This document shows positions 1 through 48,560 of a stretch of 64,000 nt of DNA, piece by piece (position 1 is the first letter of the stretch; each line of letters opens with the position of its first letter). The notes under the pieces are model-generated. The model made no database searches and was not told where the DNA came from. It saw nothing but the letters and a program-made list of their open reading frames with translations. The position numbers and the translations under genes were made by a program. Source of the DNA: Chrysomallon squamiferum (lineage: Eukaryota; Mollusca; Gastropoda; Neomphalida; Peltospiridae); the NCBI GenBank assembly GCA_012295275.1, contig CM022671.1:10669237-10733236 (forward strand), in the 5' to 3' direction.

Positions 1-3000
1 CCATAATTGTTACAATAACAATAATTATCTAGATTAATTAATATTTATTGCATTGGATTGGATAAAACACTCACACACACAAAATAAAATAAAATAAAAC
101 AAGTAAACATTTGTTTCAAATTAACGAATATTTCTAACATTAACATAGTCACATTATAATATCAGTAATTAGGCATTTCTTTAATATTTATTATACTAAA
201 GTGGTTAAAAAATGATAATTAAAACAAAATAAATGAATGTTGCTGTTACTAAAAAAATCACTTTATAGCAGGTAGATGTCAGTGCTTTAAAATTCACAAT
301 TTTGTCTGATGTGAATATATCTAATCACTGTGTAGTACATGATTTATATTCTATAGACATATTCCCTAACTGTTGTCATTTTCATCATATTATCCTTTGA
401 TTGATGTTACTACAATACTTTCAAATACCGTATTAAAACATAAAAATAAAATTTTCATAAAATAACAAATTTTAATGTTATGTTTATTTTTTTATAAAAT
501 TCAGTTTAGGTAACATAAAACACAAAACCTTTGTTTAAATGAATAAATTAAATCAGTTGGTTAAAATCACATCTTCATAAAGGAAACTTCTGCTTAAGAC
601 ACTTTGTAGAATTTGGAGCTTGGAGTCTTTTACTCTTTTGTGTATTACTAACAGTAAATAATTTTAACAATTAAATGGACAAGTTTTCATTTTTTATTAT
701 GATGTTTTAAATAATTAAGAATATCTCTATCTCTAATTATTCTATATTTGATCCAGTAACATTACTAAATTAACCTTATTAAAATACTAGGTGTCATCAT
801 TTCAAATTTACAATTCTGTCTCCTGTGATTATTCCTAATAAGTAACAAGTATTAGAGATAAAATTCAACTGTAATAACTATAAATTTTGGGATTATATCA
901 ATCAATTAAAGTAGCTGCCTGAGAGATATTTAAATTTTTCTGTAATATAATTTAATGGTATGATAAAATATTTTGATAAACATACTGATTTACAAAGCTT
1001 TTCTGTTTAACAGACAAATGAATTAATAAATCAATTAAAGAATAACACAAAATATCATGCTGTGATACATGCAGCTCAACGTTTATATTGTGTTTAAAAT
1101 ATATTTGCATTTGCTTCAAAACTACTATTACCACATGATTTCTTTTAAAGACATAATAAATGTTAACAGTAATTGCATCCACCCAGATTGAGACCAGTGC
1201 CGTGATACTGAGTGATGGTTTTTATGTCTCAATACAACTAATCATACCAGTTACTGGTAATAAGCTAAAATGTACAGTTTTGTCTGGTGAGCTTATTTCA
1301 TTTAATTTCTACAATAAATTCATTTTACTAGACAGATGCACATAAAATAAAATATTGCCAAATAACGAAGTAGTTTCTTGTCATCAGCAACGACAATTAA
1401 GATAATTAAAAAAAAAAAAAAATACATCAAAAATTGAAAATATACAACTTACTCTCATGAGCTTGTTTCTAATAACTAAAAAGTAATATTAGTGGTATAA
1501 TGATGTAGATCTTCATGTTTATTGTCACTATATATAACTCTTTTTAGCTACCAAACTGCCATTATTACAAAAAGAAAAATGACTAAATATTAATTTTTTT
1601 CCCTTTTATAGCAAAGTTAATTTTTTATTTCTTTATAATATATAAATGATGAAACAATTTGTTTGGTTATAAATACATAGTTTGTGTCATGTCTTAAGAA
1701 GGTACAAGTTGTACTTGGTTTTTCCTAACATTTAACATTAAACCAATTTAAAAGATATAAACTAACTTCAGAACTAATGCATCTGTATCTTAGTCATTCA
1801 TATTTTCTGGGATTTTATTGTTTCCATTTACCTTTTTGAATATATTCCTACCAGTTGTCACCTTTATTAAAAATCATTTAAATCTTCATTCACATTTAAT
1901 GCTGGTTAAAAAAGACAAAGGTCACATTTAACCTTAATTCAATAAATAAATAAATAAATAAATAAATAAATTACCTATGTTACATTATCAGTAACTAGCT
2001 AGGCATCTGTCTCTGGTGTGCTTATTTCTAAAAATTATCAAGTGCTACATTTAAATCATCCTGTGACATAACTTTCCTCTGATTATTCCATCTTCATTAT
2101 TTTAGATATTGAATTTAAAATTGTTACTTTTATTTTAGATAAAACATTACAATAAAGTTTTGATCATGTATTAAATATTGATATATTGTGACTAGATTTA
2201 ATTTGAATAAAGTTATTATTATAATATATAAAAAGACCTAGACAGCCTTTTCTCTCTCATTGTAAGCTATTTATTTAATTGGTGCTGGTTAAAATAGATT
2301 AAGTTAGAAGTTCTGTCAAAGAATCAGCAGGGTAAAAATTCACATAAATGTGCTTCTAAACATTGTACTGTTAACCATAAGTAATGTTTTTAAAAATATG
2401 TATATCACTACTAATTCATCCACCCTCATGAGACTGGTACCTTGTTGTGGTGGGGTGGCTTGAGAGTCTCGAGGACCCAGAGAGCTATGCCGGCTGGAGT
2501 ATCAACTCCTGATAGGTCTAACCATGTCGGAAAGGTCAAAGGAGAGAGTCCAGACAAAAGTCAGTCTCCCAGCCCTACTTCTTAAGAGAGTTTGGCTATC
2601 CTTTTATCTGCTAGTTTTTAGTTAAGTTTTAAGCCAAGGTTTATTTTAATTTTTTAAATGATAAGTAACTGATTTTACATCACAAATAATCAGGTTAATG
2701 AAAATATACAACTGTCTGGTGTGCTTATTTCTAACAACTAATAAACTTAAGAGAATATCACATTAATCATAATGTACTGGATGAGATTTTGGAGGATTTT
2801 ATTTGTCCAGTTCTTACTTCATTTAGAATTGCTGCATTGGAAGTTCTAATAAAGATAATATTATTATTATTTTTTCATTATTATCAAAGCATCATCATGT
2901 GTGAAGTCTTCACCATAAAGAACAAAAAACAAACAAAAACAATTATTTAACTGTTACGTACAAGTTTGTCTGGTGTGCTTATTTCTATGATCTAAACTGG

Positions 3001-3400
3001 CTTGTATTTTATTTAGTGCATTTAATTCTTCATTAAACAAAAAAATAAAATTAGTGACTATTTTATTTATAAAATATGAAAAAACTCTAAATTGAATTAG
3101 TTCCAAATGAAGCTGTTAAAATATTTCAAAAATTGATTTCTCATCAGCTAACCTTCATTTTAAATAATAAGTAATAATGATAGAGCTAAGTAAGACACAT
3201 ATAAATTGTTCTTCTAAAGGGTTTTTTAAATGTGGAGTTTTTTATTTAATTTTTATTATTATTTTCTTTTTTTTATTATATCAGGTTTTTCTCCTAAGTA
3301 CTTACACATTAAATGATCAAAAATTATTTCAAAGTAACCATATTTCATCTGTTAGTAATTAAATATAAAAATATATATATTGCTGTTAATTATTTATTAT
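1..3400. repeat. Outer-arm diverged repeat units (tctggtgtgcttatttcta family), left
   Basis: The phrase ttgtctggtgtgcttatttc or a diverged form occurs near 300, 825, 1,275, 1,450, 2,005, 2,710 and 2,965. Flanks are also partly alike (ttaaatgaagattaa-type, catctgattatatgat-type). Spacing is irregular. No gene is supported in this stretch. Confidence 0.65.
2411..2606 (+). mobile_element. GC-rich ~190-bp unit, left; possible retroelement fragment
   Basis: A sharply bounded, much more GC-rich block sits in AT-rich DNA (ccaccctcatgagactggta, ttgttgtggtggggtggctt, atgccggctggagtatcaac). The composition and motif style resemble the 5' region of non-LTR retrotransposons, but no open frame follows. 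That identity is a guess from appearance. Confidence 0.4.
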
Positions 3401-4349
3401 AAATTACCATCTTCCTCTAAAGATTTTAGTTTTTGTCATTTGTTTGTTAACTGGGTGATTTTCTCAATAATTTTAATACTGAGAAATACAAAATAAGAAA
3501 ACAAATATGAAATCTATTTTTGTTATTACATATATTTTTTGTAATTTCTACATAATTTCAGAAAATAAATATCAGAGCTTTTGGGGTAGGTTTGTCTTAT
3601 TTAAAATCAATGATGTTACATACCAGCAATTAGCATGACTTACATTAAAGTTAAAACTTTGATTAGTTTCCAGAATAATTGAAGATGTTTAGATTTGTAT
3701 TTTCACTGTTACCATTATACCCATTGGTTCTTGAAACTTCAAAAAAAAAAAAAAAAAAAAAACCCTCAAGTTATTATTTTGAAACATTTTGCACACCTCA
3801 GGTTTGAATTTCAGATTTCCTATAATATAGTAAGTCAAAATGTAAAATGTATTAGTAGCATAGATTACAGACAGGTAGTTTCATATTAGTAACCTCTTTT
3901 TCATTTTCGCTTTTTGTTTTGTCTTACTTTTCCTGTTTTACATTATAAATTTTCTTTTATCAAACTTGAATAATATTTTTGAGATTTCAGTTTGTTTTCC
4001 TGAGCTCATTTTTTAAGTGCTTTTGTTCACATGCATATGTTCATTTCATTGTAATACTTGAATACTGAAACAGTCAATTTTCATTCTTTTAGTTTCCATT
4101 CTATAGAATACTTCATCATTTGGGTGTTTATGAAAATTGGGTAAAGCATGTTCATAAAACTTTTTTCTAATTTAATTTTATTATTATTATTATTTAATAG
4201 AAAATTCAGTTAGCCAAGAATACATGTTAATTTGTTTTCTCTAATTTCATCTTGCTGGTTAGAAACAGAAGGTATGTTAAAGTTTGCAAAACATCACTTT
4301 TGAAACTCACTGGAATGTTAACTGACTATCTTCTTTTGAAAGAAACTGC

Positions 4350-4425
4350 AGTCTCAACTGACCATCTTTCTAAAATCACTGCTATGTTAAATGATCATCT
4401 TTCTAAAGTCAGTGCAATGTTGATA
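4350..4425 (+). repeat. ~36-bp tandem repeat, about two units
   Basis: gaccatctttctaaaatcac and gatcatctttctaaagtcag are consecutive related units. They give the 97-codon frame at 4,252 its internal repeat. The frame is also open in the right copy (42,165-42,560), but nothing else supports a gene. Confidence 0.6.
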
Positions 4426-5951
4426 CATCTTCTTTCTGATGCAACAGTATTTTTAAATATCAGTCTTACTCTGTTATCTTTCTCATTTTTCTATTTCATT
4501 TCTGTGTTCTGGCAATTCAGTGGTGGTGCCCTGTTGTTTTCCTAGAACACAGTTTAAAAAGATAATTTAAGCCTGTTTATTCCTTAATGCTCTGACTGAG
4601 CCATTTCAAAATCCAGTCAGTGTTCTGTGAGTTGTTTGTCAACTTTTCTCTTTCTTATTACATTCTGATACGTCAGTAAAGTTTTGTTCATTCATTCTAT
4701 AAATTGTAATATTTTATTAAACTTTTAGTTTATTTAAGATAATTTAGTCCTTCATAATAAAAACTGTGATCTTACCCATTCAACTTTCTCATTTTGTGTT
4801 CCCCAACTGTATGATCATTTTATTTACTTCTTTTCACTAAAATGTGTTACAGAAATTCTGTAAAAATGATTGCTTCTGGAAAGACAGTAATTCTTGTGTA
4901 CCTTTAGTGACCCCTATAATAGTTAGAAGTCTAGAGTTATCTTGTTCCTAACTACTTTAGGTGGTTCAGTCCACTGACCCACAATTTAAGCCCCTTTCTG
5001 GCATAGCAAGGTTTCATTGGCCAAATGCAATGAGTGGATATAATTTCCTTTCTGCTGTTAGGTACTTGCTATTTTTCTGAAATGGCAACAATGTCTAATT
5101 CTGAGTTTAAGCAGTCATTTCCATTACACTGAGTATGTTCTGATAAGATTTAATTTCACTTTTTAAAAATCAGATTTCAAAAATAGATTGTTTATGATAT
5201 ATACCACACCAGTGAATTATGGAATTCTACTCAAAAAGAAAAAGCCATATTCATGACAGGATGTGAACTAACTGAAGTAGAGTGCAGAGGTCATGTTTTA
5301 AAGCTGTTCTCTAGGTTCTTGCTCATTTGCTGGGATCATTCAAAAATCATTTTACTATCCTTCTTTAGCTCGTTCTTTCTTTAATATTGTTCTACAGTAA
5401 CTTGCTGTTCTGGGAATTCAGGATTACTGCCCCATTCTCTTTGCCCAGAACTGAAAGTTACTAGGGAATACTCTACTTTCACTACAAAGTCTTTTAATTA
5501 CTTCTTGGTTTAATTCACTGTTAAAGTTTTTCAGCAACACAATTCTTTAAGTTTAAATGATTTTCCTTCCACCTTTCTGTTAGTAAATCAATGGGTCCCA
5601 GCAAAATTCTGTCAGTTTTGGATTCCTTTAGGAATATTCTTCATCTGTTACAAGAAAATGAACAGCTTCTGCAAAAATTCTCTCTGCTTTTCTTACTGAA
5701 AGTCAAGTTACAATATCCTTTTCTGTATAAACAATTCTCTGAAGGAACAATAAGGAAAACTGTCCAAATTACTGGACAGTTTTAGTTCCAAACAGCATAC
5801 TAAAAAACTTAGTTGTCATCAATGTTTATGTATAGACACGGAAAACTAGGAAAACAGAAAGAAGAGAAGAGAAAAATGTGGAATAGCATTAAAAATTCAA
5901 ACTCAGAAAAACTAATGTTCTAAAAATCTTAGTATCATTAAAAAACACACT

Positions 5952-5952
<1 letters not shown>

Positions 5953-5996
<44 letters not shown>
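5953..5996. repeat. (CA)n microsatellite, left arm only
   Basis: An ACAC run of about 44 bases. The mirror site near 39,580-39,605 has a short interrupted TG stretch. Confidence 0.95.
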
Positions 5997-6001
<5 letters not shown>

Positions 6002-6123
6002 ACACAATCAGTTAATGCATTCTCTTTCTGGACACAGTTAACACATGAACAAAATAAATGTTAAAATTGTCAGTTAATTATTCTCTTTCTGGACACAGTT
6101 AACCACTCTTAACAAATGTTAAG

Positions 6124-6280
<157 letters not shown>

Positions 6281-7697
6281 TCTTTTGTTAGAAAAGTAAA
6301 AGTTCCCTTTTCTCTTTATGTTGTTTACTGCATCATTTTCTATGTCTTCTCCATTACTGGAAATTGAGCTTGGATTTATTAAAATCAATGTCACTTACAC
6401 CAAATTTAATAAAACAATTTTTGAAAACATTGATCAATTCATAAGTGTGATTTCTATTCATTATCAATTACACTTTGTTCTATGCTAGAACACCTCGTGA
6501 ATATTCATTCTAAATTTTATTTATTTATTTTTTTATTTATTTAATTAATTAAAAACAAAAGCAATCTTTGTAAATTTGAATGGTTTATTGTAACATTTTT
6601 TTTTTTAAACTGTTGATTTACAGTTAAAGGACAATTATCAGTATTTTGCTTTTTTTATTTTTTTTTTCTCCTGTACTTAGAAAAATCATCAGATGTATTA
6701 CTTCTTTCAGCATTTTTATTTTTAATATGAAAATAAAGCTATGCACTGCTGAATGTAAATGGTTTATACAAAACCATAGAGCAACTATTGAGAATGTATG
6801 ATTTATTGTTAATTATCTTTATATTTTGTGTCATTTACTCATTTTTAATGTTTTTATAACCAGTAACCATTGAGAATGTATAATTTTATTGACAACTTAC
6901 ATTTTGTGACAAATTCCTAATTTTTTATGTTTTTTAATCGGTAAACATGTTTACTGTTTTTACATGTATATTGTGTTATCTTAACCAACTTTTTACAAAA
7001 TGCACTCTTTATTTTATTGCCCATAATGCATTTTACATTGTTTGCTAAACAATTTAAATTTTTTAATAATTTATATTTTAAATTTGTATCTTTTTAAAAC
7101 AATATTTGGTTGTGCCAAATAAGTTTTCTATTGTTTGAAACCTGTATTATACCCAGTACATTTATATTCTGATAATAGTACTAGTACTATTACACTGTTA
7201 TACTGAAAATATTTCAATAAATGGCTTAATTGAATTTCTTGTTTGTTGTTATTAGTATAGTTATGTGTGCACAAATTAATTTTCAGCTTACAGAGTGTAA
7301 TTTTATAAATAACAAATACAAATGGTTTTTGATGTGTTTATGATTTGACACATCAATTGAAATAGTTTCATTGTTTCGTGAAAGAATATATGCTGGCATT
7401 AAAGTCAGTTAAGTAAAGAAACACCTAAAACACTGACGTCTATACATAAAATATTTTAAGAGGACTGACAATCTTGACAACAGTCATACCCTTGGATCAG
7501 TCTGTTGTTAAAACAATTTCTGGGATTCATAAATGATATTGCATGAAATGTAATGAATGAAACATGAATCAAAGTTCAACAAACTTGATTATTCTATTGA
7601 TGACTGGTACTGGGATGATCTTCAAGTCATACTGACAGATATCATAGAAGAAATGAATAACATTTGTTTGAATATACATTTAGGAAGGAATTTACAA

Positions 7698-7750
7698 TCA
7701 AAGAATAATCAGTCAAAGAATAATCAATCAAAGAATAATCAATCAATCTA
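7698..7750 (+). repeat. 16-bp tandem repeat, three copies, left only
   Basis: tcaaagaataatcaatcaaa-type units occur three times. The right arm at 38,088-38,118 has a single unit, so the array changed after the arms separated. Confidence 0.85.
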
Positions 7751-8454
7751 TTAAAAGAAGAAAGAAAGTATTTTACAAAAGTTAAAATGTTATTTTCAAA
7801 TAGCCCAAATCTGATGCATTAACACTAATAGATCATATATTTAAATTATTTCAGATCATATTATTTTACAACTTAAATCATGAAAAGAAAAAGAAACATA
7901 GGCTATCAAAATATTCTCTTAATTTTAAAAATAATAAATGTAAACACAACATCTAACGGTAAAGATTTCATTTATCACCATTATTACTTAGCATTTGTTT
8001 GATTATTGTTGTTGTTGTTGTTTTTAGTTTATTCTTAGTATTTTATCATTTTTTCTTTATTAACTTGTGCATTATATAGATACTTCTCCTATTAGTGATA
8101 TTTGAATGTAAAAGTTATTTCTCTTAGACCAATTTATTTAGAAAGAGAATCATGAATATATTGCTAGACATTTTGATGTCCATTAACAAGAAAGGAAAAA
8201 AGATGGATAAATATTCTGTTAAAGAGGTTCTATAAATCTGGAGTGTTTACTTTTTTCTGCATTTTTTCTTCAGTAATCAGGGCTGTTTCATCTAAATACA
8301 TGTAGAATAATCATTTAAAGTTACCATATTTCATCCATTAAAAAATATATTGCTGTTAATTATAAATTATTGTCTTCTTTGAAAGACTCTTCATACAATA
8401 TGGATCTTTGATGGATTTCAGTTTTTGGGTTTTTTTATTTGTTTTGAAGATAAT

Positions 8455-9515
8455 CTGACAACAGTCTGAATCTGATTCTGTTATGTTGTGTACAGATAAC
8501 AAAATAATCACCTGCTACATCTTGAGTGGAATGTCTGAGAAAAATCACCTAAAATTAGGTATTGCTAAACAGTTTGTAGATAACTGATGAAAGCTGCCTA
8601 AATCAAATTTATACATAATGTCAGAAACATCAGCCTAAATCAAACATTGCTATGAACTAGCAAAGTAACCCAAGTTAGATATTTTGTATGATGTGGAGAA
8701 TATCCAACGAAACAAAACAATATCCAGTTTGCGAACCTGAATCAGTTACTGATGTACAGTCTAATCAAGAGAAAGTCAGTTCACACAGACATTGCTTTGA
8801 AGTGTGATAAATCATCAAAACAACCTGAACTAGAAGATACTATTATGACATGTAGATCATTTAAGAAAACATATAAACAATTTAAATTATATACTGTTGA
8901 ACAGTTTATAGATAATCTAAGAAAAGAACATGAAACCAATGTTATCATTTGAAGATAATCCAAGAAAATGACCTGAATTAGATATTCTTAGTAAAGTTGC
9001 AGATAAAACAACAAAAAAAGCTAAAGCAGGTATTATCATCCATTTTGTAAATAATCTATGATATTAATCTGAATCAGAAACTGTTATCTAGTATCTAGAT
9101 ATTCCAGCAAAACAATCAATCTAAATTACATACTGTTATAAGTATTGTGGATTATCTAAAAACTATCCAGATTAGATAGTTGTACAGTTTGTAATTGATC
9201 TATGAACACCAAAATCACACATTGCTGTCAAGTGTATATAATCATGTAAAACAAACTAAAACAGATATTGCGTCTAACAAAACAACCTCATCAGATTGTG
9301 TTATCTGGTGTATTCAAAGAGAAGAACATGAATCATGTGCTGTAAACAAGTGTGTAGATAATACAACAAAGTGACAGATAATTATTCAACGTATACACAA
9401 TCCAACAAACACATCCTGATACTGTTAACAAATATTAGACAATCTATGAAAACAACCCAAATTAGATATTGATATCAAGTGTATGGAAAATCAAATCAAA
9501 ATAACATGAAACATT
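8455..9515 (+). repeat. Degenerate ~60-bp minisatellite, left
   Basis: About 16 diverged units follow one another here. Recurring pieces are gataatctaagaaaacaacc, ctgaattagatattgt and tatcaagtgt. Spacing is roughly 60-65 bases. Short open frames inside it (such as 8,752-8,952) come from the repeat and are not treated as genes. It lies just upstream of the lectin-like gene. Confidence 0.75.
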
Positions 9516-9579
9516 TATTTTTACATGTTTATTTCATTTCATTTAAAAAAAAAATAATTTAAGATGTTTTATTTTAAAG

Positions 9580-9640
9580 GTTATGCGGGTGTGGATTTGG
9601 ATAACAGGTTTTTTTAATCCACTGATGGATCAGATAAAAG
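9580..9640 (+). pseudogene. Partial duplicate of lectin-like exon 3, left
   Basis: After ttttaaag this stretch repeats the start of the exon at 10,507 (gttatgcgggtgtggatttgg) and then decays (aacaggtttttttaatcc). It lies upstream of the Cys-rich exon, so it is a leftover of a tandem duplication, or the tail of a neighbouring lectin gene. No other exon of such a gene is visible. Confidence 0.6.
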
Positions 9641-9875
9641 AACCTGCATCAAATGTTTTCATTCTGTCATTTGTGTTTCAGATTTTGATGTATTAGTTTA
9701 TATTTATTCATTTTTAACATCACAATTTTATTTATTTATTTTGTTATTATTTTAAATTAGTTTTATTTAAACACTGCTGTCACTCTCTATTTGACTATTT
9801 GAAGATGTTAATGATATTAGTGATAAAGTGATAAATAATATAAGCATCAATGCACAATGAAAAATGAAATTGCAG

Positions 9876-11547
9876 TCTGCACTTGTTTCAAAGGATCTAG
9901 ATTGTGGTGTGATGGATTTAAGTGTATAAAAGGTTAATGCAAATATGTTATAACATTTTTTTATTTATCGTTAATAATCATTTTTATCTGTAAAATATTT
10001 TTAAATTGATTATAATGTGAAATTATTTATGGCACCAAAAGTTATTTGTAGAAATGGAGAATATATTGTTTGATAATTTTTTTAAAATTCTTGAAAGGTT
10101 AATATAAGCAAATGAATGAATGTTTATTTTTGCATGTAAGAACAGGTTGTCTCTGTTTCTTTTGCAGATTATTCAGTTTACTTTAGAGTGTATAAAGAAA
10201 AGTTCACTTTTGAAAAGGGACAGGCTCAGTGTCTTATTCAAGGAGGTCATTTGACTACATTTTTTACATCTGAAGAATATAACCAATTTTCAGAGGAGCT
10301 AACACAAAGTGGAGTTGACAACCAATATTATCACATTGGTAATATTTCTGATTTGGTAACAGAAAATATATTTGGCACCTACTGAACACTAATAGTTGTT
10401 AAGCATATATTTACATAGTTACATTTATTTTTGCATGTTTATTTCATTTCATTTTTTAAAAATATCCTCAGAATTTAGCAATAGTTTAAGATGTTTTATT
10501 TTAAAGGTAATGCGGGTGTGGATTTGGATAACAGCTTCTTTAAATCCATTGATGGATCATATAAAACTATTATTCCTAATTTGGACAGACTAAAGGCACC
10601 AGGTTCAACAGTTGTAATTGGTAAACAAAACAGAAGTGTGATTTGGAATGCTGTTATTGACAGATAAGAATACTACATAAGCTGTCGTATTTCAAGTAAG
10701 TATGTCACCTTTTACAGATTTATTAACCTTTTGTTTGTACTCCTGAACAAGTTTGTAACTAAAATGAAGTTTTCTGAAAAGCTGCTGATTTGGGAGTACA
10801 AGAATGACTCAAATTTTATTTTCAATGATGATTTCACATACTTACATTATTAGCAAAATTTGGTGTTCATATAACTTTAAGTTCTGTAATAAAATATAAA
10901 AGGTTAGTTATGTGTGTAATCAAATCCAATAAAATTAAATAAGAAATGACAGCCGAAAGATGTACCTTCCAGAAGACAGGAAAAAAACGTAAATAAAATA
11001 AATAAAATGAGAATAAAATATAAAAATCCAAAATTAATATATGACAAGGCTTGATTTGGTAGAATATTCCTTGCATTTTCAATGACAAGTTAACTGATCT
11101 TATCCGTCATTCTGTCCACCCAAGTTTTGATGGCATCACTAGCTGTTTCTTTTTTAAAGGCATAATTTTTATTACAGCATTTATATAATAATAATAATGT
11201 GTTTGTGTGTGTGTATATATATTTGTTTTTCATTATGTTCCACAGAGGATGGTTCTTACTTATTCACTGGTTATCATGATGTTCATGATGATCAGTTCTC
11301 CTCATCATCTTGTACTACTCGAACATCTCTGCCTTCAAGTTTAGCATTTGGTCCAGCAATAAGTCGGCATGGTTCTAAGATGTTTGTAAAAACTGTCGCT
11401 GGATTTCTGTTTGGAGCTTACTGGAATCCTGATGCTCATACTAACACATTTTTGAGGCAATTATTATTTTGTAATGTATTTCATTTCATTGTGTACACAA
11501 TTTTTATTATTTCTGAAATTGCTATCTTAATTTTAAATAGTTTCTAG
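9876..11547 (+). pseudogene. C-type-lectin-like gene, left copy, with premature stop
   Basis: Four exons with consensus splice sites and compatible phases are visible: 9876-9932, 10168-10338, 10507-10695 and 11246-11547. The first encodes a small Cys-rich segment (CTCF, LWCDGFKC). The second and third together resemble one C-type lectin-like domain of about 120 residues: YKEKFTFEKGQAQC and GGHLTTFFTSEEY, then FFKSIDGSYKT, SVIWNAVIDR and YYISC. The last exon (SYLFTGYHD, AISRHGSKMFVKTV, FLFGAYWNPD) matches no domain I know, and ends in a hydrophobic tail or runs into intron. In this copy the codon after NAVIDR is TAA (10,666), where the right-arm copy has GAA, so the domain is cut before its last Cys. 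No signal-peptide exon was found. The lectin assignment rests on pattern only. Confidence 0.65.
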
Positions 11548-13313
11548 TTGTCTGGAAAATATTTAAGACATAATAAGAGATGAAAACTTTGCAAATTCAG
11601 AAAATTAAATGGAAATCAGCTAAAACAATTTTCTTTTCATTAAACCAATACATTATAAAACCATTTGATTAAAGCAATGCAATGTATACATGAGTGTTTC
11701 TATGTGTTTATGTATAAACGTGTATTCAAAAATAAAAAAAAGTATAAACATCCAGAGTCCAAATCACAATGCATCTTTTAGTTTTACTACGATTCAAGTA
11801 GTATTTATAAAGGTAGTCCTATAAATTATAGATAAATTAAAATTGTAAATAACATGTTCAGTAACTATGGAATGTCTGAATACCATTTGTCTAACAAATG
11901 TGACATCATCACATTTCTTGAATATTTATTTGGATGTGCCAATACTGAATCCTTCAAATGCTTAAGAGTAACTTTTGTTTCTGTTATTCAAATTCAAAAT
12001 TACTGAAGTTGAATATTTGTTTTAGTAAAATATTACACATGATTTTAAACATATTATATTCACATCAAAGAAACCTTCAATATGTTCATATAAACAGCAT
12101 TTCCAGTATGTACATTTTTGCACAATAACTATGTTGCAGGGCTTAAAAGAATAATTTTAATTATTTTGTTTATTATTTTAATAACAGTATGTTACCTGAA
12201 ATAAAAACTTGTTTAATCTCAAGCTTGTGATTTATTAATATAATCACAAAAAATAATGGATAATTGATTATTCTTCAGAGAAGCTGTTTTTCATATATAT
12301 CTATGTTTAATCCAGCATAGTTAGTTTGTTTTCTCTTTGTTTAATTTGGAAAAAATTACTCATTTCAAAATGTGGCAAAGCTTTTACTAGCAAGAGAGGC
12401 CTGGCTACAATTGTTAATATTTTATTTATTTTTTTAACTTGGCTTCCATTCTTGGTCTAACAGTAAAAGTACCTTTTTGTTCTAGAGCTTAATCTATTTC
12501 CTGTCACTATATATAATTAAATACAATTTAAAAACTGTAATTTCCTTCCCAACTGTTATGGTGTAGCCTTATTTGATAATTCTAAAACAAATGAACTATC
12601 AAGCATAATTGAAAAGAAGATATTCCATATGCATTAATTAATTTATTAAAATAGATAAAAGGAAGACAAATAACATTCATGTTTAGTAACTATAAATTTG
12701 TTTATATTATGTTCTCTGTATGACATTGTTGAATCAAAGTGAATAAATATGATGAAAACATGTTTGTACATATTTATTGTATTAATTAAATATTGGCCTT
12801 CAGACATTCACTTTTTAAAATGGTGCTGAAATTTTATTAATTTCTTTTTATACTACATGACTGAGTACAGTTATGGCACCTAATATATACAATAAGAATA
12901 AAAATTATAAAATGTTATTTATTATTTATTTTTTTTTACATTTTTTGCAGGGTTAAATCATAATTAAATGACTTTTTGGTTTTGTTTTAGGTTACTCTGT
13001 CAAAAATACATAGCGCATTATAAAAACATTTTATAACTCTGTGCCTTGCTTGTTCATTATTAGTTTTGTCAGTTTAATATATCGTAAATAAACATTAATG
13101 AAATGAAGAGGTTTGACTTGTACAAAAATAACAACAAATGTACTTCATTAGGCTTAAACACAATTGAAACCCTTTAAGAATGTTATTTTATAAATAAGCC
13201 TATATATCTGGTCTCAAATATATGTATATGTATTATTGATTTTTTTTACATTTTAATAATCACAGTTCAATACTGATAAATACTGAATAGGCAGATGGAT
13301 AGACATAACATAA

Positions 13314-13315
<2 letters not shown>

Positions 13316-13348
<33 letters not shown>

Positions 13349-13387
13349 TATAGACAGATATATATATATTGATAGATGTATAGATAT

Positions 13388-13434
<47 letters not shown>
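13316..13434. repeat. (GATA)n microsatellite, left
   Basis: GATA repeats are interrupted around 13,345-13,390 by ATATAT and GACA variants. An A-run follows at 13,439-13,462. The Tyr-Leu-Ser-Ile open frame on the minus strand comes from the repeat. Confidence 0.95.
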
Positions 13435-13437
<3 letters not shown>

Positions 13438-14418: not shown

Positions 14419-14421
<3 letters not shown>

Positions 14422-14476
<55 letters not shown>

Positions 14477-14550
14477 CAAACAAACAAACAAACAAACAAA
14501 CAAACAAATAAATAAATAAATAAAATAAGTAAATTAAATAAAAATAAAAA
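14422..14550. repeat. (AAT)n, (CAAA)n and (TAAA)n microsatellites, left
   Basis: Three adjoining simple repeats lie about 300 bases before the CDC14 promoter. The poly-Asn and poly-Leu frames are artefacts. Confidence 0.95.
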
Positions 14551-14842
14551 CAATACAAACAAATGCATATTTCTATAATGGTATAGGTTTAAATTTTCTT
14601 GTGTATTGGGTCAAAATGTTTTGAAAGTAATTACTGCTACTACTACTACTGTTGTTATTATTAACATATACACTGTGTACTGTGTGAAGTCACATAGAAT
14701 TAATATAATTATATTTAGCCCAACCCTAATCTGTTTATTTACCAGGTAAAGAAAATTAAATTTAGTTTATTATCTTTAAAATTAGTTTACAGCCTTTAAA
14801 ATCGAAACCTTATTTTATATTCTTTTGCATGTTTCTATTCAA

Positions 14843-15805: not shown

Positions 15806-15867
15806 TGGCGTAATTGGTCGACTTGTCGAGTTGGACAAGAAAAAACCAGTTTTTACAGTTATAAATG

Positions 15868-15899
<32 letters not shown>

Positions 15900-32427: not shown

Positions 32428-32448
32428 ATATATATATCTATATATATA

Positions 32449-32483
<35 letters not shown>
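32383..32483. repeat. (TATC)n microsatellite, right
   Basis: This is the mirror of the GATA run, with different unit numbers and a different ATAT interruption. The neighbouring A-run is lost here. Confidence 0.95.
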
Positions 32484-37390: not shown

Positions 37391-39322
37391 CAAATACAAA
37401 AAAAACCCAAAAACTGAAATCCATCAAAGATCCATATTGTATGAAGAGTCTTTCAAAGAAGACAATAATTTATAATTAACAGCAATATATTTTTTTAATG
37501 GATGAAATATGGTAACTTTAAATGATTATTCTACATGTATTTAGATGAAACAGCCCTGATTACTGAAGAAAAAATGCAGAAAAAAGTAAACACTCCAGAT
37601 TTATAGAACCTCTTTAACAGAACATTTATCCATCTTTTTTCCTTTCTTGTTAATGGACATGAAAATGTCTAGCAATATATTCATGATTCTCTTTCTAAAT
37701 AAATTGGTCTAAGAGAAATAACTTTTACATTCAAATATCACTAATGGGAGAAGTATCTATATAATGCACAAGTTAATAAAGAAAAAATGATAAAAATAAT
37801 AAGAATAAACTAAAAACAACAACAACAACAATAATCAAACAAATGCTAAGTAATAATAGTGATAAATGAAATCTTTACCGTTAGATGTTGTGTTTACATT
37901 TATTATTTTTAAAATTAAGAGAATATTTTGATAGCCTATGTTTTTTTTCTTTTCATTTCATGATTTAAGTTGTAAAATAATATGATCTGAAATAATTTAA
38001 ATATATGATCTATTAGTGTTAATGCATCAGATTTGGGCTATTTGAAAATAACATTTTAACTTTTGTAAAATACTTTTATTTCTTCTTTTAATAGATTGAT
38101 TGATTATTCTTTGATTGTAAATTCCTTCCTAAATGTATATTCAAACAAATGTTATTCATTTCTTCTATGATATCTGTCAATATGACTTGAAGATCATCCC
38201 AGTACCAGTCATCAATAGAATAATCAAGTTTGTTGAACATTGATTCATGTTTCATTCATTACATTTCATGCAATATCATTTATGAATCCCAGAAATTGTT
38301 TTAACAACAGACTGATCCAAGGGTATGACTGTTGTCAAGATTGTCAGTCCTCTTAAAATATTTTATGTATAGACGTCAGTGTTTTAGGTGTTTCTTTACT
38401 TAACTGACTTTAATGCCAGCATATATTCTTTCACGAAACAATGAAACTATTTCAATTGATGTGTCAAATCATAAACACATCAAAAACCATTTGTATTTGT
38501 TATTTATAAAATTACACACTGTAAGCTGAAAATTAATTTGTGCACATAACTATACTAATAACAACAAACAAGAAATTCAATTAAGCCATTTATTGAAATA
38601 TTTTCAGTGTAACAGTGTAATAAATACTGTTATGACATGTATATTCTGTAATCTAAGCCAAGTTTTTACAAAATTTACACTTTATTTTATTGCCCGTAAT
38701 GCATTTTACATTGTTTCCTACAGATGTTAAACAATTTTAATAATTTTAATAATTTATATTTCAAATTTGTATCTTTTTAAAACAATATTTAATTAAATAC
38801 TAGTACTATTAAACATGCTATAAAAACAAAATGTAAGTTATCAATAAAATCACACATTCTCAATGTAAGTTATCTGAAGATAATTAACAATAAATCATAC
38901 ATTCTCAATAGTTTCAATATGGTTTTGTATAAACCATTTACAGTGAGCAGTGCATAGGTTTATTTTTATATTAAAAATAAAAATGAAAGATATAATACAT
39001 CTGATGATTTTTCTAAGTACAGAAAAAAATTTAAAAAATCAAAATACTGATAATTTTCTTTTAATTGTAAATCATAATAGTTTATAAAAAAAATATTACA
39101 TAAACCATTCAAATTTACTAAGATTGCTTTTGTTTTTAGTTCAATAACAAAATAAATAAATAAATAAAAAATAAAAATTACAAAGAATGTTCATGAGGTA
39201 TACTAATATAAAACAAATTGTAAATGATAATGAAGAAACAAAGATCACACTTATGAATTTCATCAACTTTGTTTTATTAAATTTGTTTTATTGACATTGA
39301 TTTCAATAGATCCAAGCTAGAC

Positions 39323-39407
39323 TTCCAGTAATGGAGAAGACATTGAAAATGAAGTAATAAAAAACAAAAAGAGAGAAAAGTGAACTTTTACTTTTCTAAT
39401 AAAAGAA

Positions 39408-39466
<59 letters not shown>

Positions 39467-41111
39467 TAATAATAAAAATGACAATGAAATGATAACAAAA
39501 AGAAAATTCTTAATATTTGTTAACTATGGTTAACTGTGTGCAGAAAGAGAATACATTAAGTATTCTTTTTTCATGTCTACATGTTTGTGTGCATGTGTGT
39601 GTATTTTAATAATTTAATGATTCTAAGATTCTTAGAACATTATTTTTGTAAGTTTGAATTTTTAATGCTATTCCACATTTTTCTGTTCTCTTCTTTCTTT
39701 TTTCCTAGCTTATTTCTGTGTCTATACATAAACGTTGATGACACTAAGATTTATAGAAATGCTGCTTGGACCTAAAAATGTCCAGTGATTTGGAAAGTTT
39801 TCCTTATTGTTCCTTCAGTGAACTGTTTATACAGAAAAGGATACTGTAACTTGACTTTCAGTAAGATGGGCAGAGAGAATTTTTACAGAAGCTGTTCATT
39901 TTCTAGTAACAGATGAAGAATATTCCTAAAGTAACCCAAAAGTGACAGAACTTTGCTGGGACCCATTGGTTTACTAACAGAAATGTGGAAGGAAAATCAT
40001 ATAAACTTAAAGAATTGTGTTTCTGAAAAACTTTAACAGTGAATTAAACCAAGAAGTAATTAAAAGACTTTGTAGTGAAAGTAAAATTTTCCATAGTAAC
40101 TTTCAGTTCTGGGCAGACAGAATGTGGCAGTTATCTTGAATTCCCAGAACAGTAAGTTACTGTAGAACAATATCAAAGAAAGAACGAGCTAAAGAATGAT
40201 AATAAAATGATTATTGAATGATCCCAGCAAATCAGTGTGGATACATAGAAAGTTAAAACAGAAGATTATTGCAGCAAGAACCTAGAGAACAGCTTTAAAA
40301 CATGGCCTCTGCACTCTACTTTGGTTAGTTAACATCCTGTCATGAATATGGCTTTTTTGTTTTTGAGTAGAATTCCATAATTCACTGGTGTGGTATATAT
40401 CATAAACTATCTATTTTTGAAATCTGATTTTTAAAAAGTGAAATAAATCTTATCAGAACATACTCAGTGTAATGAAAATGAGTCTAAAACTCAGAATCAG
40501 ACACTGCTGCCCCTTTCAGAAAAATAGTGAATACCTAACAGCAGAAAGGAAATGATATCCACTCATTGCATTTGATCAATGAAAACTTGCTATGAGAGAA
40601 AGGGGCTTAAATTGCAGCTCAGTGTACTGAACCACCTAAAGTAGTTAGGAACAAGATAACTCAAGACTTCTAGCTATTATAGGGGTCACTAAAGGTACAC
40701 AAGAATTACTGTCTTTCCAGAAGCAATCATCTTTACAGAATTCCTGTTACACATTTTAGTGAAAAGAAGTAAATAAAATTATCATATAGTTGGGGAATGA
40801 AATGAACATATTCATATATGTGATAGAAGCACTGAAAGATTGAGTTCAGGAAAACAAATTGAAATCTCAAAAGTATTATTTAAGATTGATAAAAGAAAAT
40901 TTATAATGTAAAACAGAAAAACTAAGACAAAACAAAAACCGAAAATGAAAATGAGCTAACTAATATGAAACTGCCTGTCTGTAATCTATGCTACTAATAC
41001 ATTTTACATTTTGACTTACTATATTATAGGAAATCTGAAATTCAAACCTGAGGTGTGCAACATGTTTTAAAATAATAACTTCAGGGTAACTTATATTTTT
41101 ACAAGTTTCAA
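39323..41111 (-). repeat. Right-arm tandem duplication, copy 1
   Basis: This starts ttccagtaatggagaagaca and has a second copy starting at 41,112. Both copies correspond to one stretch of the left arm (about 3.7-6.35 kb). Copy 1 keeps the part matching left 5.0-5.7 kb but lacks the part matching left 4.1-4.8 kb. Confidence 0.75.
39411..39476. repeat. (AAT)n microsatellite, right
   Basis: This is the counterpart of the ATT run at 6.1 kb, much shorter. Confidence 0.95.
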
Positions 41112-42711
41112 TTTCCAGTAATGGAGAAGACATTGAAAATGATGCAGTAAACAACAAAAAGATAATAATAACAATAACAATAAAAATAATAATAATAACA
41201 ATGACAATGGCAATAATTATAAGAATAAATACTTAATATTTGTTAAATGTGGTTAACTGTGTGCAGTATTTTGTTTATGTGTACGTGTCTCTGTGTGTAT
41301 GTGTGTCTGTGAGTATATGTGTGTTTTAATAATTTAATGATACTAAGATTTTGAAGTTTGAATTTTTAATGCTATTTCACATTTTTCTCTTCTCTTCTTA
41401 ATTCGACCTTGTTTCTGTGTTTATACATAAACGTTCATGACATTAAATTTTTAAGTATGCTGTTTGGAACTAAAAATCTCCAGTAATTTGGACAGTTTTC
41501 CTTATTGTTCCTTCAGAGAACTGTTTATACAGAAAAGGATACTGTAACTTTACTTTCACTAAGAAAAGCAGAGAGAAGTTTTGCAGAAGCTGTTCATTTG
41601 CATACACTCAGAATTAGACATTGCTTCCCATTTCAGAAAAATAGCGAGTACCTAACAGCAGAAAGGAAAAGATATCCACTCATTACATTTGGCCAATGAA
41701 AACTTATTACAACAGAAAGGGGCTTAAATTGCAGCTCAGTGTACTGAAACCACTAAGGTAGTTAGCAACAAGATAACTCTTAGACTTCTTACTATTATAG
41801 GGGTCACTTAAGGTACACAAAGATTACTGTTTTTCCAGAAGCAATCATCTTTACAGAATTTCTGTAACACATTTTAGTGAAAAGAAGTAAATAAAATGAT
41901 CATACAGTTGGGGAACACAAAATGAGAAAGTTGAATGGTAAGATCACAGTTTTTGTTATGAAGGACTAAATTATCTTAAACTAAAAGTTTAATAAAATAT
42001 TACAATTTATAGAATGAATGAACAAAACTTTACTGACGAATCAGAATGTAATAAGAAAGAGAAAACTTGACAAACAACTCACAGAACACTGACTGGATTT
42101 TGAAATGGCTCAGTCAGAGCATTAAGGAATAAACAGGCTTAAATTATCTACTTTAAACTGTGTTCTAGGAAAACAACAGGGCACCACCACTGAATTGCCA
42201 GAACACAGAAATGAAATAGAAAAATGAGAAAGATAACAGAGTAAGACTGATATTTAAAAATACCGTTGCATCAGAAAGAAGATGTATCAACAGTGAACTG
42301 ACTTTAGAAAGATGATCATTTAACATAGCAGTGATTTTAGAAAGATGGTCAGTTGAGACTGCAGTTTCTTTCAAAAGAAGATAGTCAGTTAACATTCCAG
42401 TGAGTTTCAAAAGTGATGCTTTGTAAACTTTAACATACCTTCTGTTTCTAACCAGTGAGATGAAATTAGATAAAAAAATTAACATGTATTCTTGGCTAAT
42501 TGAATTTTCTATTAAAGATTTATAAACGTAAAACAGGAAAGGACACAAAACAAAAACCAAAAATCAAAGAGACATCACAAGTGTGAAACTGCCTGTCTGT
42601 AATCTATGCTACTAATACATTTTACATTTTAACTTTTTTTATATTATAGGAAATTCAAACCTGAAAACAAGTTTCAACAAACCTGAGGGTAATTTATATT
42701 TAACAAGTTTT
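41112..42711 (-). repeat. Right-arm tandem duplication, copy 2
   Basis: This is the second copy of the 39,323 unit. It keeps the part matching left 4.1-4.8 kb (including a short tandem repeat read as 'LSKITAMLNDHLSKVS') but has lost the part matching left 5.06-5.69 kb near 41,600. The deletions in the two copies complement each other. Confidence 0.75.
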
Positions 42712-43220
42712 TTAACAACTATTGTGTATAATGGTAACAGTAAAATTTAAACCTCCCCAAAAACTTTTCAGTTATTTTGCAAACTAAAAATATCAAAGTT
42801 TTAACTCAATGCTTTTAGTTTGCTAATTGCTTTTTTTTCAGTATTAAATTTGATTAAAACCACCCAGTTAATGAAAAACTAAAATCCATCAAAGATCCAT
42901 ATATATATATATATTATAATATACTAATGAATGAAATATGGTTACTTTAAAATAATTTTTGATCATTTAATGTTTAAGTATTTAGGAGAAAAAGCTGATA
43001 TAAAATACAAGCCAGTTTAATTCCTAGAAATAAGCACACCAGACAAACTTGTATATAATTAATTGGTTAATAATAGTTTATTTTGTTTTTTTTTTTTTTT
43101 TTTCGGGTGAAGAATAAAAATTATATCACATGTTTTAAATGTAGCATTGAAAAATAAACACACCAGACGGTTGTATATTTTACTTTAAATAACTAATTAT
43201 TTGTAATGTACCTTCAGGAT

Positions 43221-43415
43221 CTTATTTTACAAATTAAAATAAACCATGGCATAAGTCTTAGCTAAAAACTAGCAGATAAAACAATCTTATTTTACAAATT
43301 AAAATAAACCATGGCATAAGTCTTAGCTAAAAACTAGCAGATAAAACAATCTTATTTTACAAATTAAAATAAACCATGGCATAAGTCTTAGCTAAAAACT
43401 AGCAGATAAAACAAA
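43221..43415 (+). repeat. 65-bp unit, three near-identical tandem copies
   Basis: Units start cttattttacaaattaaaat at 43,221, 43,286 and 43,351 and look identical to the eye. The left arm has a single equivalent near 2.6 kb, so the triplication is specific to the right arm and recent. Confidence 0.9.
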
Positions 43416-43525
43416 AAGTAAAATGTTTTGATACTGCAGTTGACATGCTTTGATATTATTATTTTTATATTATTATCATCATCATTATCATTATCATTAT
43501 TATTATGGAACTTTCATACAGATAT

Positions 43526-44145
43526 TGTCTGTATTGAATTGTATTGGAATTTCCAATGCAGCAGGCAAAGTTTACGAGTTTTGACACCACGCCAGGGACT
43601 CGCAATCTTATGGCCTCATTTCAAGCATGCCAGAAGATTGCGTCCTGCTGGATTGGAATTGCAATGCAACACAATCCAGAAAATACCCGGAGCACTATTG
43701 TCTGTATTGAATTGTATTGGAATTTCCGATGCAGCAGGCAAAGTTTACGAGTTTTGACACCACGCCAGGGACTCGCAATCTTACAGCCATATTGCATGCA
43801 TGCCAGAGGATTGCGTCCTGCTGGATTGGAATTGCAATACAACACGATCCAGAAAATACTTTGAACACATAATAATAATAATAACAATAATAATAATTAT
43901 AATAATAATAATAATAACAATAACAATAGCAATAATAATAATAATAGTTATTATTATTATTATAAATCTAATCTTCATGAAGATACTTTCTGTATTGAAT
44001 TGTATTGGAACTTCCAATGCAACAGGCAAAGTTTACGGGTTATGACACCATGCCAGCCACTTTCAAAAACTTTCAGCCATATTTCATGTCCTGCTGCATT
44101 GGAATTGTAATACAAACAGATCCAGAAAATACTCTGAACACATGA
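43526..44145. mobile_element. Three copies of a small fold-back element, right arm only
   Basis: Copies start at about 43,526, 43,698 and 43,988. Each begins tgtattgaattgtattggaa, ttccaatgcagcagg and ends cctgctggattggaattgca. The two ends are reverse complements, giving a hairpin of about 155 bases, as in a MITE. An ATT/ATA microsatellite block splits copies 2 and 3. The left arm at 2.76-2.9 kb has at most a short trace (attgctgcattggaagttc). Composition is less AT-rich than its surroundings. Confidence 0.65.
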
Positions 44146-44389
44146 TCATTTTTTACAAGCTGTTTTAAAAGTAGCAAGAATTAGCTAAGTAAAATACTTC
44201 AAAATGTCATCCAGTACATTATTATTACTGTTATGTTCTCTTAAGGTTATTAATTATTAGAAATAAGCACACCAGACAGTTGTATATTTTCATTAACCTG
44301 ATTATTTGTGATGTAAAATCAGTTACTTATCATTTAAAAAATTAAAATAAACCTTGGCTTAAAACTCAACTAAAAACTAGCAGATAAAA

Positions 44390-44580: not shown

Positions 44581-45021
44581 TAGTGATATACATATTTTTA
44601 AAAACATTACTTATGGTTAACAGTACAATGTTTAGAAGCACATTTATGTGAATTTTTACCCTGCTGATTCTTTGACAGAACTTCTAACTTAATCTATTTT
44701 AACCAGCACCAATTAAATAAATAGCTTACAATGAGAGAGAAAAGGCTGTCTAGGTCTTTTTATATATTATAATAATAACTTTATTCAAATTAAATCTAGT
44801 CACAATATATCAATATTTAATACATGATCAAAACTTTATTGTAATGTTTTATCTAAAATAAAAGTAACAATATTAAATTCAATATCTAAAATAATGAAGA
44901 TGGAATAATCAGAGGAAAGTTATGTCACAGGATGATTTAAATGTATAACTTGATAATTTTTAGAAATAAGCACACCAGAGACAGATGCCTAGCTAGTTAC
45001 TGATAATGTAACATAGGTAAT

Positions 45022-45052
<31 letters not shown>

Positions 45053-45899
45053 TTCATTGAATTAAGGTTAAATGTGACCTTTGTCTTTTTTAACCAGCAT
45101 TAAATGTGAATGAAGATTTAAATGATTTTTAATAAAGGTGACAATTGGTGGGAATATATTCAAAAAGGTAAATGGAAACAATAAAATCCCAGAAAATATG
45201 AATGACTAAGATACAGATGCATTAGTTCTGAAGTTAGTTTATATCTTTTAAATTGGTTTAATGTTAAATGTTAGGAAAAACCAAGTACAACTTGTACCTT
45301 CTTAAGACATGACACAAACTATGTATTTATAACCAAATTGTTTCATCATTTATATATTATAAAGAAATAAAAAATTAACTTTGCTATAAAAGGGAAAAAA
45401 ATTAATATTTAGTCATTTTTCTTTTTGTAATAATGGCAGTTTGGTAGCTAAAAAGAGTTATATATAGTGACAATAAACATGAAGATCTACATCATTATAC
45501 CACTAATATTACTTTTTAGTTATTAGAAACAAGCTCATGAGAGTAAGTTGTATATTTTCAATTTTTGATGTATTTATTTTTTTTTTTTTATTATCTTAAT
45601 TGTCGTTGCTGATGACAAGAAACTACTTCGTTATTTGGCAATATTTTATTTTATGTGCATCTGTCTAGTAAAATGAATTTATTGTAGAAATTAAATGAAA
45701 TAAGCTCACCAGACAAAACTGTACATTTTAGCTTATTACCAGTAACTGGTATGATTAGTTGTATTGAGACATAAAAACCATCACTCAGTATCACGGCACT
45801 GGTCTCAATCTGGGTGGATGCAATTACTGTTAACATTTATTATGTCTTTAAAAGAAGTCATGTGGTAATAATAGTTTTGAAGCAAATGCAAATATATTT

Positions 45900-48560
45900 T
45901 AAACACAATATAAACGTTGAGCTGCATGTATCACAGCATGATATTTTGTGTTATTCTTTAATTGATTTATTAATTCATTTGTCTGTTAAACAGAAAAGCT
46001 TTGTAAATCAGTATGTTTATCAAAATATTTTATCATACCATTAAATTATATTACAGAAAAATTTAAATATCTCTCAGGCAGCTACTTTAATTGATTGATA
46101 TAATCCCAAAATTTATAGTTATTACAGTTGAATTTTATCTCTAATACTTGTTACTTATTAGGAATAATCACAGGAGACAGAATTGTAAATTTGAAATGAT
46201 GACACCTAGTATTTTAATAAGGTTAATTTAGTAATGTTACTGGATCAAATATAGAATAATTAGAGATAGAGATATTCTTAATTATTTAAAACATCATAAT
46301 AAAAAATGAAAACTTGTCCATTTAATTGTTAAAATTATTTACTGTTAGTAATACACAAAAGAGTAAAAGACTCCAAGCTCCAAATTCTACAAAGTGTCTT
46401 AAGCAGAAGTTTCCTTTATGAAGATGTGATTTTAACCAACTGATTTAATTTATTCATTTAAACAAAGGTTTTGTGTTTTATGTTACCTAAACTGAATTTT
46501 ATAAAAAAATAAACATAACATTAAAATTTATTTTTTATGAAAATTTTATTTTTATGTTTTAATACGGTATTTTAAAGTATTGTAGTAACATCAATCAAAG
46601 GATAATATGATGAAAATGACAACAGTTAGGGAATATGTCTATAGAATATAAATCATGTACTACACAGTGATTAGATATATTCACATCAGACAAAATTGTG
46701 AATTTTAAAGCACTGACATCTACCTGCTATAAAGTGATTTTTTTTGTTAACAGCAACATTCATTTATTTTGTTTTAATTATCATTTTTTAACCACTTTAG
46801 TATAATAAATATTAAAGAAATGCCTAATTACTGATATTATAATGTGACTATGTTAATGTTAGAAATATTCGTTAATTTGAAACAAATGTTTACTTGTTTT
46901 ATTTTATTTTATTTTGTGTGTGTGTGTGTTTTATCCAATCCAATGCAATAAATATTAATTAATCTAGATAATTATTTTTATTGTAACAATTATGGTTATT
47001 TTAAGATATATTTGTTAACTGAAAGCATTTTTTTTTTTTCCAACACAGTAATATCACTATGAAAATATAGTAGCTACCATAAATTAAATGTAATAGTGAA
47101 AAATTATATGACAACTTAAATAATAAGATGAATGCAATATTTGTCAGTATTAACTTTAGTAACTTTAATCAAATGATATTATGACAAAAATGAAATATGA
47201 AAAAACAAATATATCACGGTAGCATAGAAATCTTAAACTTGTTGGCAATTTGAAATAAGCACATCAGAAAAAGCTGTAAAATTTAAACAATTAACACCTA
47301 GTAACATCTTTTAATATTAAAAAAATAATTTCATGGAATATATGTATTTTAACCTCTCCAAATCAGTATATATTACATAACCTAGCTCATTACTGAAATT
47401 GTAATATTGTTATTTTAAAATAGGAAATATTAGTTAATTTGAAGCAAATATTATATGGGGAATTTTACCATTCCAATACAATAATTATGATTACACGGTT
47501 TAGGCATGTAAGATTTCACCAGATAATTATCAGTAATTTAATATGGTTTTTGTCATAAATAAATAAATAAATTAAAAAATGCAAAACTGAAATACTAAAT
47601 TCAAAGATTCAAAACCATGCCACCATCATCCTATTCACTGGAGGAAAAGTGTCATATTTACAGATTAGGGATGTTAAATTCTGGCTCTCACTGTTCTATG
47701 TGCTTAACAATTAGTGCATCATAGTAAGCACTTAATAAGTAAAATGCTAATACTATAAACATACTTATGTTCTAATAGATACTTATCAGACTGAATCTTA
47801 ATGAGGAGACTGGTACTGTACCACAGTTAAAAGTGAAAGCTCTACAATGATCTGTCTGCCCCACAGGAGTAATGAATTTGTTCCAGATTATTCTCTGGTC
47901 ATTCACTGCTACTGCACAGAGCATCATAGAGAAGACAGAATTGTGCTGTAATTCTCTGGTGATCTGTCTGCCCTACAGGAACAATAACGTCATTCCAGTT
48001 ATGTATCGGTCAGTCACTATTCCTGCCCAGATCATCAAAGAATTAAAATATTTAAGTTTACATTACATAACAGTGCAATAAACAGTTTTTTTAATTTTAT
48101 TATTGTTTCTTTTTTCTTATTATTTTTTATCTAGTGCTTCTTAGATACCTCTTGTATGAATGCACAAATGAAATTAACTAGCAAGAAATATGAATCTATG
48201 ATTTTGATAGTAGAATTTGATATCAAAATTGAAATTTTAGTAGACATTTTCAAATAAGAACCAGAATTATCAGTAAGTATGACACACATCAATCAGCAGA
48301 CAGGAGGGTGGAAACAATCACAATCTAAAATGGATGTTTCAAAAGGTCAGCAAAACACGATAGTCAAGCATCAGAATTATCAGGGATTAGACTACATTCA
48401 CAGGACTGTTTTATCTAGGGTGGTTACACCATTTATGGGGCACAGCTTTAATGAAATGTGCTTATTTCAAGCAACCAACTCAGCTTTCGTTCAACTGTTT
48501 TCTTATATAATAGTTTTATCTGTTGAATTTTATAGATCTGATTAGAAACTTCTGAATTTA
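45900..48560 (+). repeat. Segmental direct repeat, copy 1
   Basis: Many stretches recur in order at about 50.2-52.2 kb. Examples are 46,166 (aataatcacaggagacag) with 50,450, 47,831 (aaagctctacaatgatctgt) with 51,452, and 48,295 (gcagacaggagggtggaaac) with 51,955. The offset falls from about 4.28 to 3.62 kb, so copy 2 has lost roughly 0.6 kb. Copy 1 spans the point where the window-left edge pairs. Open frames inside are short and not conserved between copies. Confidence 0.7.

Follow-up and report, generated by a model that had tools for sequence, protein, structure and literature searches.

The 64,000-nucleotide window analysed here, positions 10669237-10733236 of chromosome C7 in the genome of Chrysomallon squamiferum, contains a giant inverted repeat (palindrome) built in part from exons of a CDC14-like phosphatase gene. 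By its matches, each arm is a chimera, with an outer part of C7 array sequence and an inner 8 kb that, together with the spacer, carries the CDC14-like exons. The arms share one chimeric boundary and are mosaics, the spacer is single, the joint is blunt and lies in the middle of an exon, and the sequence is free of gap letters (N) from -6190 to 104000, negative numbers here and below lying to the left of the window and coordinates given without a chromosome name being window positions. We believe, at somewhat better than even chances, that a CDC14 fragment was captured and then duplicated by fold-back or template switch, which would make the palindrome a real and fairly young duplication in a C7 duplication cluster.

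Extent and composition of the inverted repeat

Arm pairing was found by blastn of the window against itself on the minus strand, later with flanks added. Positions 7188-21196 paired with 38622-24556 (97.7% over 14,143 columns) and 1-2828 with 46995-44163 (98.3%), and ~2.8-7.2 kb against 38.6-44.2 kb gave broken matches only (84-95%). Beyond the window, -6190..-1145 paired with 53124..48086 (98.9%). Matches this long are not attributable to chance. The left arm (plus strand) fills 1-21196 and continues to -6190 at a gap of 200 N, and the right arm (minus strand) fills 24556-46995 and a remainder at 46996-53124 that pairs with the left arm from -6190 to 0. Between them, a single-copy spacer of 3,359 bp (21197-24555, plus strand) holds CDC14 exons without a second copy in the window. 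A preliminary description of this DNA had proposed a giant inverted repeat with a 3.4-kb spacer, which the self-alignment bears out, and arms of ~21-22 kb within 1-46995. The pairing is real, but those lengths are too short, since position 1 is the window edge; the full arms measure at least 27,387 bp on the left (to -6190) and at least 28,569 bp on the right (to 53124). That description had mentioned neither the extension past the window, nor the chimeric arms, nor the 0.6-Mb duplication cluster with units in both orientations. Two gaps of 200 N (-51029..-50830 and -6390..-6191) occur between -60000 and 104000, and the window itself contains no N.

Each arm passes from C7-array sequence outside to C6-type CDC14 sequence inside at the same sequence, found at 13207 (13200-13210) in the left arm and at 32590 (32585-32595) in the right. 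The inner part of the left arm (13207-21196, plus strand) has relatives on C6 only, according to a probe and its right-arm copy aside; self-blastn, the boundary sequence and the probe identify 24556-32589 (minus strand) as its inverted copy. Another, native flank stands at this point in the C7 copies K1, K2 (the copy left of the gap) and D (C7:10520001-10535000), where sequence ending near 99200 passes directly into that starting at 32590, and near 99200 itself, where the first few hundred bases likewise continue as the sequence starting at 32590. Among the C7 copies read, CDC14 sequence occurs at that point in the two palindrome arms only. Since the C6/C7 boundary is common to both arms, the join between the two chromosomes would have been made before, or together with, the inverted duplication.

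The whole assembly (404.6 Mb, 22 contigs) was probed with parts of the palindrome. The inner-arm probe (18100-20100) gave 28 matches, some of them simple repeats, with 2 on C7 (both arms) and 26 on C6, where the best reached 89-90%. The joint probe (24000-25000), with the best 40 of 751 candidates scored, gave 61 matches, of which one spans the joint; its matches on other chromosomes were confined to a short repetitive stretch (query 840-952). As far as these two probes reach, the other copies of the CDC14-like gene would lie on C6. Against C6:27594602-27596156, the end of the spacer (23000-24555) shows 2 mismatches and 1 gap in 1,556, and other C6 units are 8-17% away. This closest C6 match adjoins a 200-N gap, the C6 contig ending 24 bp further, and the inner arm part is not in the C6 stretch read. 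The CDC14-gene piece was apparently copied out of one chromosome (C6) and into a duplicated region of another (C7).

CDC14-type units run in both orientations through an array at C6:27525001-27625000, which is interrupted by 200 N at each of 27546716 and 27596181 and by 7,500 N at 27611381. Its arms at 27.53-27.58 Mb look inverted, but with a 200-N gap between them the orientation of the contigs is unproven. A further C6 copy at 16.155-16.195 Mb, with no internal inverted match of at least 150 bp, is a linear relative. More diverged CDC14-type stretches were seen on C6 near 15.84, 16.17, 16.49, 16.53, 22.11 and 22.26 Mb, and the CDC14-type gene family looks expanded on this chromosome. A literature search on CDC14 expansion gave nothing relevant, CDC14 being unmentioned among the matches listed.

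CDC14 exons and the joint

The domain search covered 89 open reading frames (ORFs) of at least 50 amino acids, selected from 171 outside 24.6-38.6 kb with low-complexity filtering and two additions. It returned 13 families at E <=0.05, of which DSPn, DSPc and related phosphatase models were taken as real. DSPn, the N-terminal domain of CDC14, was matched on the plus strand of the left arm by exon ORFs at 17401-17526 (domain positions 4-34; E 3.9e-05, 24.5 bits, under the curated cut-off of 28.2), 18176-18370 (36-60; E 7.3e-07), 18855-19019 (63-93; E 1.6e-08) and 19150-19314 (87-117; E 0.025, under the cut-off). The last three have minus-strand mirror copies at 27583-27389, 26903-26739 and 26608-26444, respectively, so the mirror order of exons in the preliminary description is confirmed for three CDC14-type exons; one of the three pairs is identical in protein, and the others show one and two changes. 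A possible extra CDC14 exon at 20903-21031 (plus strand) is weak (CDC14B2, E 0.21 only). Within the spacer, also on the plus strand, are an exon at 21558-21680 (CDC14A chain 9rib_A, E 5.3e-07), a catalytic-domain exon ORF at 24113-24390 that ends in HCK with a GT donor (CDC14B2 1ohc_A, E 2.1e-22), and a phosphatase-loop exon with AGLGRTG at 24477-24555 (ORF 24424-24564; DSPc E 2.4e-06, under the cut-off), which is cut by the joint. In order, the exons start with the DSPn domain and end at the phosphatase loop, and the CDC14 signature, DSPn followed by a catalytic domain with an HC-x5-R loop, is present, the loop being split by an intron and some exon matches lying under the Pfam cut-off. The catalytic domain is incomplete, its exon being cut at 24555, though it continues in the C6 copies.

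The joint (24555/24556) connects 24555 to the inverted strand of 21196 and adjoins the active-site loop. When C6 unit 2 and the left arm were used as proxies for the parent sequences, strict homology to both of them at the joint was 0 bp. The reading frame of the left arm hits a stop four codons past the joint, and the right gene copy lacks catalytic exons within the window. Judged by these frames, both gene copies, which point inward, are broken, the left one ending just past the phosphatase loop, and neither would be expected to give a functional protein.

Elsewhere in the 89 ORFs, one matched zf-C2HC_2 (E 4.5e-04), and the remaining families were weak. Rfam gave no match at the gathering score. 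One small ORF, the only one compared with viral contigs as a test of viral or phage origin, had no relative there.

The duplication cluster and exchange between copies

The outer arm probe (45000-47000) found five C7 copies (97-100%) in both orientations, together with a diverged copy at 10.33 Mb and weak matches elsewhere. Six copies (95-100%) and a partial one were found with 75018-76560, and seven copies (96-100%) at C7:10.19-10.82 Mb with 55800-57400, which matched more weakly at 14.07 Mb and on C1. The three probes show several near-identical local copies longer than 1 kb within C7:10.19-10.82 Mb, as is characteristic of a segmental-duplication cluster, and on these matches the outer arm part belongs to a 0.6-Mb C7 cluster with units in both orientations. 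K2 (-30942..-6391) repeats the right arm and its flank in direct orientation (93.8-98.7%), and the K2 left end (-50829..-49595) is an inverted partial copy of right-arm 37423-38618 (87.6%). Probe positions, and these only, suggest further mirror centres near C7 10.445 and 10.58 Mb.

Outside a patch described below, and with gap-adjacent sites left out, the arms differ by substitution at 173 of 22,230 sites (0.78%), much of the 2.3% difference seen by BLAST being indels. These substitutions are clumped, with a variance/mean of 3.70 that was reached by 0 of 2,000 shuffles. When both arms and K2 were aligned together and compared per kb bin, the arms differed from each other by 0.00-2.17% outside right-arm 38.6-44.6 kb and by 2-25% inside it, and the bins adjoining the joint by 0.11% and 0.31%. 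K2 differed from the arms by ~0.5-5.3% outside the patch. The arms were mutually closest in 14 of the 15 one-kb non-patch bins comparable with K2, the exception being a bin in which K2 was closer to the left arm.

The preliminary description had arms differing at kilobase scale; the difference is real, and amounts to a single patch in which the left arm carries the version of another array unit. The left-arm patch (2829-7187, plus strand) is of the type of C7 units D and E (C7:10352001-10367000), to which it was aligned, and the corresponding right-arm patch (38623-44162, minus strand) is of the type of K2. Left-arm 1813-6234 aligns to D in one piece (95.9%), as does 1411-6217 to E (96.6%). 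Over ten 500-bp bins (2400-7399), the difference between the left arm and D was 1.0-3.5% in all but one bin, which holds simple repeats and reached 13.2%; for E it was 0.2-2.1%, in the first seven bins only. The right arm differed from K2 by 0.2-4.9% in these ten bins. The bin at 4400 was non-discriminating for patch type. By these alignments the patch is 4-5 kb in size, and its resemblances point to tract exchange among arms and array units, or to differing sources of the arms.

Among other features, satellite-like units recur many times within 61-71.7 kb (including 61000-64000 of the window), and a perfect (GA)67 tract lies at 55671-55804. A small inverted repeat at 15575-15724, with 41-nt arms 68 nt apart, is perhaps the foldback element of the preliminary description. 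TTAGGG-type repeats are plentiful (927 matches, compared with 2 for the control), in keeping with an animal that has this telomere repeat.

Origin of the palindrome and known systems

The order of events, the mechanism and the youth that we infer are as follows. A C7 array unit would have been broken at the present 13207/32590 and joined, by end joining or copying, to a C6 CDC14-gene copy comprising the inner arm part, the spacer and probably more. The end of this piece (24555, in the CDC14 exon) would then have been linked, or have switched, to the opposite strand at 21196, a point 3,359 bp earlier, and synthesis running back through the inner part and out into C7 sequence would have made the second arm, the loop staying single. 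Later, the arms and other array units would have exchanged tracts, giving near-identical beside diverged stretches and the swapped patch. A homology-free fold-back or template switch, or end joining, would be consistent with the blunt joint and the 3.36-kb spacer. Divergence is low (0.1-0.3%) at the spacer end and close to the joint, which suggests a young event; the 0.11% and 0.31% of the bins at the joint, together with the 2 mismatches and 1 gap at the spacer end, fit a recent origin of both steps. The preliminary description had offered a fold-back duplication or two haplotypes joined head to head. We favour a true fold-back because the stretch is N-free, the joint cuts an exon without shared bases, the arms differ at the joint and the C6/C7 boundary is common to both arms; joined haplotypes are unneeded.

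Several points weigh against this explanation. The outer end of the left arm falls at the 200-N gap, starting beyond -6190, and is absent from this contig. Between the arms, parts of the inner sequence differ by 1.4-2.2%, compared with 0.13% between the spacer end and C6; given the young event suggested near the joint, such stretches need either a later exchange of tracts with other copies or a difference between the arms from before they were joined. With C6 as outgroup, 73 changes in the inner part were assigned as derived in the right arm (37), the left arm (26) or neither (1), with 9 unassignable, and since both arms carry derived changes, one converted tract is insufficient as an explanation. 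The 0-bp joint shows an imperfect resemblance beside it, and is unlike the human fold-back junctions in passages from Hermetz and colleagues (PMC3907307), where 13 of 21 had 2-8 bp of homology, another 3 fell within repeats and 5 carried insertions.

An unlikely but serious alternative is that the C7 cluster already contained two complete CDC14 copies in inverted orientation, and that a deletion from 24555 of one to 21196 of the other took out the middle, a tight palindrome being left. The joint alone is compatible with this, its bluntness resembling simple end joining; C7 units occur in both orientations anyway, and on C6 two arms, 97.8-98.7% identical, lie inverted with ~17 kb between them, albeit with a 200-N gap in that interval. 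Differences already present between the arms would also account for up to 2.2% in the inner part against 0.13% at the spacer end. Two events at one chimeric boundary plus the deletion would be required, however, and no complete or downstream CDC14 was found on C7, where the spacer/joint and inner-arm probes match the palindrome only, the exon-downstream region itself being unprobed.

It is rather improbable that an assembler or a chimeric read joined two haplotypes or array units head to head. The region is hard to assemble, with 200-N gaps here and in the C6 relatives; the spacer end is near-identical to a C6 contig ending at a gap, so that reads of two loci were perhaps mixed; and the 0.78% arm divergence, which by itself may leave joined haplotypes possible, would fit heterozygosity in many animals. 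Against this, the joint has no shared base, whereas overlap assemblers join on long common sequence, it lies inside more than 110 kb free of N, and among the 40 scored candidates only one match crossed it. The preliminary description had taken the non-identity of the arms to exclude an exact read-through hairpin, and this holds: 1 mismatch and 3 indels fall in the first 100 bp at the joint, and these differences and the 3.4-kb spacer exclude a hairpin read through the same molecule. Finally, a replication-based inverted triplication (ODIRA-like), with K2 direct, the left arm inverted and the right arm direct as they read in order across the 200-N gap, is very improbable, given that this gap separates K2 from the left arm, that K2 lacks the C6 piece and has diverged more from the arms than the arms have between themselves, and that yeast joints, in the part of the ODIRA paper seen (PMC10766186), use 5-6 bp inverted repeats 40-80 bp apart against 3,359 bp and 0 bp of homology here.

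The mirrored exon pairs are nearly complementary, and a hairpin RNA from the locus is possible. That the palindrome is a hairpin-RNA gene, its transcription starting at the promoter of the left CDC14 copy and crossing the spacer to enter the inverted one, with long double-stranded RNA and small RNAs silencing the C6 CDC14 family as products, strikes us as highly doubtful; if true, it would act on a phosphatase family either as a natural brake by RNA interference or as a selfish element. Maize pollen drive reportedly involves an inverted-duplication hairpin. The locus would also show a route by which inverted and truncated copies of a gene, which may serve as hairpin-RNA sources, can arise away from their parent family.

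Primate Y palindromes are said to undergo arm-to-arm exchange. As in those palindromes, near-identical and diverged tracts alternate along the arms here; the present arms differ in that they would have exchanged with other array units too. The male-determining locus on housefly chromosome V, as far as the excerpted account goes (PMC11252125), likewise has gene sequence in a palindrome with a similar spacer (3,046 bp) in a setting of tandem repeats, but with two intact gene copies in its arms, terminal inverted repeats and 9-bp direct repeats, whereas the copies here are truncated. The scaffold resembles ODIRA products in that three copies read direct-inverted-direct, although here across the gap that breaks their order; unlike in ODIRA products, the spacer is far longer and no short inverted repeat occurs at the joint, although the excerpted ODIRA paper allows later spacer lengthening (PMC10766186).

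The closest likeness is to human fold-back inverted duplications, which in passages from the same study of 21 junctions have spacers of 766-70,466 bp (median 3,428 bp, against 3,359 bp here; PMC3907307), inverted arms and a single-copy spacer, and a possible tie to a join with another chromosome, to which the C6-type sequence joined to C7 in both arms here may correspond. The present palindrome is instead interstitial in a duplication cluster, not demonstrably terminal, and old enough for arm divergence and tract exchange. Because its joint has no inverted homology, we class it as working like the human fold-back type and not as a member. Fold-backs are already known, mostly from patients, tumours and yeast, and best from human chromosome rearrangements; an instance in which donor, capture boundary and later exchange are legible is uncommon, as far as a non-exhaustive literature search went, and if confirmed by reads this would be an inherited fold-back whose donor chromosome, capture boundary, loop and exchange with neighbours can still be read.

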